From NCBI RefSeq assembly GCF_003008515.1, contig NZ_CP027668.1:3389001-3453000 (forward strand): a stretch of 64,000 nt of DNA, given 5' to 3'. This DNA is from Phreatobacter cathodiphilus. Its GTDB lineage: Bacteria; Pseudomonadota; Alphaproteobacteria; Rhizobiales; Phreatobacteraceae. Made by a program: the position numbers and the translations under genes. The notes below the pieces were generated by a model, which was given only the letters and a program-made list of their open reading frames with translations, was not told where the DNA came from and made no database searches. Below are positions 1-55,139 of this stretch, in pieces. Positions within the stretch are counted from its first letter, which is position 1. Each line of letters opens with the position of its first letter.

Positions 1-266
1 TGCGGATGGAGGACATCGACCTCTACGAAGTGAACGAGGCCTTCGCGCCGGTGCCGCTCGCCTGGCTGCGCCACACCGGCGCCGACCCGTCGAAGCTCAA
101 CGTCAACGGCGGTGCCATCGCGCTCGGCCATCCGCTCGGCGCCTCCGGCACCAAGCTGATGGCGACGCTGATCCATGCGCTGAAGGCCCGCGGCAAGCGC
201 TACGGCCTGCAGACCATGTGCGAGGGTGGCGGCATCGCCAACGTCACCATCGTCGAGGCGCTCTGA
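1..266 (+). CDS. Thiolase (acetyl-CoA acetyltransferase family), C-terminal end only
   Basis: The gene enters from before the window, so only about 88 C-terminal residues are visible. They carry the two catalytic motifs of the thiolase C-terminal half: GGAIALGHPLGASG with the active-site histidine, and TMCEGGG with the second catalytic cysteine. Thiolases cleave 3-ketoacyl-CoA with CoA or condense acetyl-CoA. An acyl-CoA synthetase follows about 100 bp downstream on the same strand and then an ABC-type binding protein, so a degradative role in carboxylic or fatty acid catabolism is inferred. Substrate chain length cannot be told from this fragment. Confidence 0.9.
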   Translation, partial: RMEDIDLYEVNEAFAPVPLAWLRHTGADPSKLNVNGGAIALGHPLGASGTKLMATLIHALKARGKRYGLQTMCEGGGIANVTIVEAL

Positions 267-365
267 CGCCCCCGCCGCGGCGGATCGACCCGCCGCGGCG
301 CAGCCACCAAGAGCAGCGCCAAGCTGCCGCTTGAGGAACCACCTCCCGAGAGGATCTTTGCGTCC

Positions 366-12032: not shown

Positions 12033-12281
12033 TCAGTGCAGGCTGACGGTCTCCAGTTCGTTCTGCCAGGCATTCGCCACCGCATCCTCGCGGCGGTCCG
12101 TGACCATGATCGGCATGCCGTCGGCCGACACGAGAGCGAAGAGGTCGAGCCCCGGCGGCAGGGCCGGCGCCTGCGGGAACATGCGGGTGATCTCGTCGGA
12201 GCGCATCGGCTTCACATAGGCGACCTTGGCGACGCCGAGCTGGGCGAGGAGCTCCGGGGTGATGGGGGAACGGTCGATCAT
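12033..12281 (-). CDS. DUF1150 family protein
   Basis: An 82-residue protein (MIDRSPITPELLAQLGVAKV..., with DLFALVSADGMPIMVTDRRE and AWQNELETVSLH) matching the DUF1150 family, which in rhizobia habitually follows an hsp20 gene. It has an excellent ribosome site (aaggagg, eight bases before ATG) and lies 52 bp after hsp20, so it is probably made from the heat-shock transcript. Its biochemical role is unknown; a link to the small heat-shock protein is inferred from conserved proximity only. Confidence 0.88.
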   Translation of the reverse strand: MIDRSPITPELLAQLGVAKVAYVKPMRSDEITRMFPQAPALPPGLDLFALVSADGMPIMVTDRREDAVANAWQNELETVSLH

Positions 12282-12333: not shown

Positions 12334-12762
12334 TCAGTCCTGCGCCGCGATGTCGATCCGCCGGACGATCCTTTCGGGCTCGGGGCGGGCGAGATCGACG
12401 GAGAGGAGCCCGTTCTTCAGGTCGGCTCCCATGACCTCCATGCCGTCGGCGAGAACGAAGACCCGCTGGAACTGGCGTGCCGCGATACCGCGGTGGATGA
12501 AGTCGCGCCCTTCGGCATCGTCCATCTGGCGGCCGCGGATGAGGAGCTGATTCTCCTCCACCGTCACCTCGAGCTGCTGGCGGGTGAAGCCGGCGACGGC
12601 GAGGGTGATGCGAAGGCGTTCAGGCCCCTGGGTCGATGCGGCGATCCGCTCGATATTGTAGGGCGGATAGCCCTCGGCCCCCTTGGTGACCCGGTCCAGC
12701 ACCCTTTCCAGCTGGTCGAAACCCAGCAGGAACGGCGACGACAGGGATGGCACGCGCGACAT
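12334..12762 (-). CDS. Hsp20/alpha-crystallin family small heat-shock protein
   Basis: A 142-residue ATP-independent holdase chaperone. The N-terminal arm (SPFLLGFDQLERVLDRV) and YPPYNIER lead into an alpha-crystallin beta-sandwich (LRITLAVAGFTRQQLEVTV, RDFIHRGIAARQFQRVFVLA) and the closing strand motif GLLSVDLARP. The motif YNIER before the sandwich is typical of rhizobial IbpA/HspA-type proteins. It is preceded by a near-consensus RpoH promoter and a structured leader and is followed by DUF1150, so heat induction is strongly suggested. Confidence 0.93.
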   Translation of the reverse strand: MSRVPSLSSPFLLGFDQLERVLDRVTKGAEGYPPYNIERIAASTQGPERLRITLAVAGFTRQQLEVTVEENQLLIRGRQMDDAEGRDFIHRGIAARQFQRVFVLADGMEVMGADLKNGLLSVDLARPEPERIVRRIDIAAQD

Positions 12763-12833
12763 GGGCGAAGTCCTCGTGTGAGCGACATCGGCCGGGCCCC
12801 GGAGGCACCCGGTGCGCCGGAAACCTCCGGCGC
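12763..12833 (-). promoter_or_regulatory. Structured hsp20 leader, ROSE-like RNA thermometer candidate
   Basis: The about 70-base leader begins with a perfect 8-bp hairpin (gcgccgga/tccggcgc, 12833-12814), has further GC-rich pairing (gcac-cgg-gtgc), and ends with TCGCT (12785-12781) six bases before the ribosome site GAGGA (12775-12771). UYGCU opposite AGGA is the hallmark of ROSE thermometers in rhizobial small heat-shock genes. The pairing here is imperfect, so this is a candidate only. Confidence 0.4.
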
Positions 12834-12840
12834 TTCCCGA

Positions 12841-12869
12841 ATATGGCGACGGCTCCGCCCGCTCGCAAG
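12841..12869 (-). promoter_or_regulatory. RpoH (sigma-32)-type promoter of hsp20
   Basis: On the minus strand CTTGCG (12869-12864), a 17-bp spacer, then CCATAT (12846-12841). This fits the alphaproteobacterial RpoH pattern CTTG...CCATNT. Transcription would start near 12834, just before the leader hairpin. Confidence 0.75.
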
Positions 12870-54936: not shown

Positions 54937-55040
54937 GGCGGGTTCCGGAAAACTGTCGCCACTCTAGCCGCTCCGCAACGGCCTGTCCGGTCCGGCGCGA
55001 AGGCCGCTTGCGTCCCGCCCGCCTTCCCGCCATATAGCCG

Positions 55041-55139
55041 GTGGGAGGTTGGCGGTGGACGAGACTCTCGCCAACCCGGTCAGGTCCGGAAGGAAGCAGC
55101 CGTAACGAGCCCGTTTCGGGTCGCGTGTCAGCCTCCCAC
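55041..55139 (+). ncRNA. ffs: Signal recognition particle RNA, small bacterial (4.5S) type
   Basis: The ends gtgggagg and cctcccac pair. The apical signature ggtcaggtccggaaggaagcagcc (55079-55102) is that of SRP domain IV, bound by Ffh. It lies directly upstream of dnaX, the usual place in alphaproteobacteria. The ends are set by the terminal helix and are good to a few bases. Confidence 0.93.

Follow-up and report, generated by a model that had tools for sequence, protein, structure and literature searches.

A putative RpoH promoter and a ROSE-like leader upstream of the hsp20-larA operon of Phreatobacter cathodiphilus

Control of small heat-shock protein (sHsp) genes by a ROSE element together with RpoH is already known, and rpoH-dependent, ROSE-bearing sHsp operons have been reported in S. 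meliloti and M. loti (PMC3989490, PMC2873474). Two ROSE elements are predicted in S. meliloti, at ibpA and SMb21295 (PMC2873474). ROSE (RF00435) and ROSE_3 (RF02523) are rhizobial sHsp thermometers whose leaders comprise several hairpins and end at the start codon, and in which the ribosome site is imperfectly paired, around a bulged G, with a U(U/C)GCU motif. The short ROSE-like thermometer of Pseudomonas ibpA follows a sigma32 promoter and carries the U(U/C)GCU hairpin in a leader of 61-62 nt with two hairpins (PMC3669281). The Caulobacter operon shsp2-larA is under direct sigma32 control, and its product LarA, an alphaproteobacterial heat-shock protein, binds and activates Lon via its last five residues (PMC10665427).

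Here we analysed an hsp20-DUF1150 operon within a 64,000-nucleotide stretch of the P. cathodiphilus genome (the window). The locus shares with ROSE and ROSE_3 the sHsp leader, the several hairpins ending at the start codon and the imperfect pairing around a bulged G. It differs from them in a shorter leader with other hairpin sequences, in an RF00435 match that falls below cut-off, and in the lack of a match to either family in 28 other leaders of its branch. Sigma32-type promoter, leader and motif-bearing hairpin resemble the Pseudomonas ibpA element, but three hairpins are present here instead of two, and no downstream larA is described there. With the S. meliloti and M. loti operons the locus shares the combination of putative RpoH and ROSE control, the elements named in S. 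meliloti being those at ibpA and SMb21295. The order of an sHsp gene followed by a DUF1150 gene, under putative direct sigma32 control, matches Caulobacter shsp2-larA, whereas the Caulobacter account discusses no thermometer or leader and contains neither the word thermometer nor UTR. We consider it likely, with a probability of roughly 80%, that hsp20-larA is preceded by a two-layer heat-shock switch consisting of an RpoH promoter and a ROSE-like leader thermometer.

The operon and its promoter

The hsp20-DUF1150 gene pair named in the preliminary description was confirmed by domain matches:

12334-12762, minus strand: hsp20, small heat-shock protein, 142 aa (PF00011)
12033-12281, minus strand: larA (DUF1150), putative Lon activator, 82 aa, C-terminus TVSLH (PF06620, 100.5 bits; function from the Caulobacter orthologue, PMC10665427)

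A gene for an ABC transporter ATPase lies upstream of hsp20 on the same strand. The DUF1150 gene was present at 97 of 103 loci, and nearly all relatives share a C-terminal ending like TVSLH. The window protein displays the marks of LarA, namely the domain, a gene position directly after the sHsp gene and a hydrophobic tail ending in His. Since the DUF1150 protein is taken as LarA and hsp20 encodes an sHsp, the operon would yield, by analogy with Caulobacter, a holdase chaperone and a protease activator.

On the minus strand before hsp20, the arrangement CTTGCG-N17-CCATAT was found at 12869-12841 as previously claimed:

12869-12864, minus strand: -35 box CTTGCG, read from the sequence (CTTGAA in most relatives)
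12846-12841, minus strand: -10 box CCATAT within CGCCATAT, read from the sequence (sigma32 form CNCCATAT, PMC3669281)

The two boxes are separated by a spacer of 17 nt. E. coli sigma32 promoters have the form NNCTTGAA-N13-18-CNCCATAT (PMC3669281) and S. meliloti RpoH1 promoters the form CTTGAA-N15-16-CCTATAT (PMC4843759). Written as CTTGCG-N15-CGCCATAT, the hsp20 promoter fits the E. coli consensus fully in spacing and -10 box and at four of six positions in the -35 box. A strict pattern, CTTG-N18-20-CCATAT, occurred at two sites in the window, compared with 0.03 expected from shuffles, and at three in the whole 4.5-Mb genome. CTTG-N18/19-CCATAT was exact upstream of 89 of 93 orthologues, 58 of the 89 as CTTGAA and with CTTGAA-N17-CCATAT as the usual form, and was found neither on the reverse strand of the 93 upstream regions nor in 9300 shuffles. 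One gene of the genome passes the curated cut-off as rpoH, and another is RpoH-like.

CTTGCG-N17-CCATAT also occurs in the window at 55007-55035 (plus strand), 8 bases 5' of the SRP RNA gene (55044-55139), and makes up one of the three strict genomic sites counted above. CTTG-N18/19-CCATAT precedes the housekeeping SRP RNA in all 12 of 12 genomes of the genus. Either RpoH controls the SRP RNA as well, or the motif is non-exclusive or serves another sigma factor too. Vegetative promoters of alphaproteobacteria resemble RpoH promoters. This likeness, together with the conserved motif at the SRP RNA, favours a promoter read by the housekeeping sigma factor, in which case heat control would be translational only, via the thermometer. 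We regard this as improbable, because a vegetative promoter would be expected at more than three strict sites in 4.5 Mb, the RpoH form, CTTGAA with CNCCATAT, prevails among relatives, and the Caulobacter operon is sigma32-dependent (PMC10665427). The motif at the SRP RNA is nevertheless the reason why we only infer the sigma factor at the hsp20 promoter, and why calling the RpoH promoter 'well supported' from sequence alone, as the preliminary description did, was somewhat too strong. The assignment itself held: the conserved CTTGAA form in relatives, the presence of rpoH and the sigma32 dependence of the Caulobacter operon (PMC10665427) support reading the hsp20 promoter as a probable RpoH promoter.

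The leader and its three hairpins

If transcription starts near 12834, hsp20 (ATG at 12762, minus strand) has a leader of about 72 nt. The stretch from just past the -10 box into hsp20 was predicted to form three hairpins (-45.1 kcal/mol), a fold stabler than 200 of 200 shuffles (z = -2.85), and the three were kept in the leaders of all 12 genomes of the genus:

12833-12814, minus strand: hairpin I, perfect 8 bp, GCGCCGGA-GGUU-UCCGGCGC, covarying within the genus
12812-12792, minus strand: hairpin II, CCGGG-U-G-CC...GG-G-CCCGG, conserved in relatives with compensatory changes
12790-12766, minus strand: hairpin III, ROSE-like, pairing UCGCU with the ribosome site (ROSE covariance match, covariation)
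12785-12781, minus strand: UCGCU motif with bulged G at 12783, read from the sequence
12775-12771, minus strand: hsp20 ribosome site GAGGA, inside hairpin III (sequence read, fold)

Hairpin I is the perfect 8-bp hairpin noted earlier and is present as described; it is a genus-level feature that is not conserved outside the genus. The conserved core of the leader consists of hairpins II and III. The general form of hairpin II is GGG-[AU]-GCC...GGG-[UC]CCC, with double changes present among relatives. In hairpin III the Shine-Dalgarno pairing, CGA-U-GUC-[G]-CUC / GAG-GAC-U-UCG, comprises nine canonical pairs, interrupted by one bulged G and one U.U mismatch. The pairing is thus imperfect, as had been stated, but not weak. 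UCGCU was rightly identified as a UYGCU motif before GAGGA, although the two are separated by five bases and not six.

A UCGCU-type hairpin was recognised in 61 leaders, giving 36 distinct hairpins. In these 94.2% of cells were paired and five pairs showed double changes, values reached in none of 500 shuffles, and sliding the partner arm reduced pairing to 34-57%. The leader has the features by which ROSE-like elements are defined (PMC3669281): an sHsp gene directly follows this 5' leader, its U(U/C)GCU is imperfectly paired with the Shine-Dalgarno sequence in a conserved and covarying 3'-proximal hairpin, and its three hairpins lie within the range of two to four. In Bosea, Microvirga, Methylobacterium and relatives, the hairpin before hsp20 has [U/C]GCC opposite GGG, not UCGCU opposite AGGA, and this shorter form contains the same bulged G.

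A covariance search with the ROSE family had been proposed as a check, a lack of any hit counting against a thermometer. Such a hit was obtained. When run by cmscan, ROSE (RF00435) was the best match of the region, at 12812-12762 on the minus strand and ending at the ATG; its 24.7 bits are below the gathering score of 45 bits (E = 0.17 over all 4227 Rfam families on 601 bases). Over the 4.5-Mb genome, at E up to 10, ROSE gave only two weak matches, each just 5' of an hsp20 gene. The second lies immediately 5' of the genome's other hsp20 (C1:2627348-2627710), whose leader (C1:2627743-2627836) carries GUGUCGCUUGAAGGAGGACAUCC and pairs UCGCU with GGAGGAC. A CTTGCG box lies upstream of this second ROSE-like leader.

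Orthologues of hsp20 (80) were taken from named alphaproteobacterial genomes, nearly all Hyphomicrobiales. A covariance model built from genus leaders only (R1) recovered, at modest E-values, leaders from other families that end at the hsp20 ATG, and its match to window positions 215-303 was judged to be due to chance. A second model (R2) was built from 47 leaders including that of the window, which scored 63.1 bits as a member of this training set. Scanning 385 alphaproteobacterial genomes with R2 at E up to 0.01 yielded nine matches, the window and eight other genomes, and each of the nine ends precisely at the start codon of an hsp20 orthologous to that of the window. In these scans the leader was specific for this gene. 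No match to the Rfam ROSE families was obtained in 20 leaders of the branch at E up to 5, or in eight further leaders at E up to 2. Among the relatives searched, only the Shinella leader had an Rfam match, to ROSE_3 and below cut-off. Because the leaders gave no ROSE match beyond this one, the window leader belongs to a ROSE-like branch outside Rfam coverage at its cut-offs.

In GC-rich shuffles, too, the ribosome site is often paired, as would be expected if the hairpins were chance folds of GC-rich DNA. We consider this explanation highly improbable and reject it on the basis of the covariation of hairpins II and III and of the blind genome scans, in which nine of nine matches preceded the same gene. 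The sub-threshold ROSE match at the ATG, the second match at the other hsp20, the covariation and these scans uphold the proposed ROSE-like thermometer, which is better supported than the preliminary description had assumed.

The predicted energy of hairpin III at 37 °C was -8.5 kcal/mol, close to the values of relatives, compared with -16.2 kcal/mol for the Rfam consensus hairpin. Deleting the bulged G was predicted to stabilise it from -8.5 to -12.3 kcal/mol. Nearest-neighbour energies predict that the ribosome site is still closed at 50 °C, although such models are poor on the non-canonical pairs of ROSE elements. This high predicted stability at 42-50 °C is in line with a hairpin that lowers or times translation without physiological thermosensing. 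The leader would then perhaps be bound by a protein, for instance by the sHsp itself, in the manner of gammaproteobacterial IbpA, which is reported to repress itself via its own 5' untranslated region (PMC10474464). We think this quite unlikely, since motif, bulged G and stability match those of ROSE-like elements (PMC3669281), and protein binding and thermosensing are in any case compatible with each other.

Candidate hairpins at larA, clpB and groES

A further hairpin was noted between the two cistrons, as a lead that is not established:

12307-12288, minus strand: candidate hairpin AACCU-[G]-CCUUCAAGG-AGGUU, which covers the ribosome site of larA

It also has a bulged G. In Bradyrhizobium-type loci the same place is occupied by another sequence, with near-invariant arms ACUCGACCGCU and GGAGUCGAG around a loop that varies in length and sequence; 97.1% of cells were paired in this hairpin with no double changes, which gives no covariation support. 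Over 85 loci the larA ribosome site was not less accessible than shuffled sequence (0.50 versus 0.48), and five genus loci ranked low. Owing to the lack of covariation and the negative aggregate accessibility test, the larA-site hairpin may act in thermosensing, in coupling or in neither.

Hairpins resembling hairpin II were observed in other leaders. In seven genus genomes one lies 3' of the clpB -10 box, about 70 nt before the start codon, and carries UGCC, UCGCU or UUGCU depending on the species; it lies far from the start codon and cannot hide the annotated clpB ribosome site. One groES leader contains a longer version with a long insertion. The genome has only three sites at which a hairpin II-like motif follows CCATAT, and hsp20 and clpB account for two of them. 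We treat the clpB and groES hairpins as a lead only.

An extended scheme would have both cistrons gated by thermometers, hsp20 by the ROSE-like hairpin and larA by its bulged-G hairpin, with heat releasing chaperone and Lon activator each. Hairpin II would then be a shared 5' module of RpoH-controlled mRNAs (hsp20, clpB and groES) with a function other than hiding a ribosome site. This scheme is speculative, and we hold it to be rather unlikely.

The proposed switch and its meaning

In the two-layer switch that we favour, heat or unfolded protein would free RpoH, and RpoH-RNA polymerase would start about 7 nt past CCATAT. The leader of about 72 nt would fold into three hairpins, of which hairpin III would keep the hsp20 ribosome site closed at normal temperature by pairing it with UCGCU around the bulged G. 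Warming would open hairpin III and permit hsp20 translation, as in ROSE thermometers. The sHsp would hold unfolded proteins and LarA, judging from its Caulobacter orthologue, would activate Lon to remove them.

The apparent novelty lies in the ROSE-like branch that guards hsp20-larA and that Rfam does not see. We found no report of this branch or of a link between larA and a thermometer in the open-licence literature, where DUF1150 is named only in the Caulobacter paper (PMC10665427); this is not proof of absence. The finding brings RNA thermometry together with LarA, a Lon activator described only recently. With R2 there is a covariance model for this branch, which is widespread in Alphaproteobacteria and escapes detection by Rfam, so that heat control of hsp20-larA can be annotated across the class. 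If the proposed switch is correct, the operon that makes LarA would be heat-controlled at both transcription and translation, in addition to the turnover of LarA by Lon.
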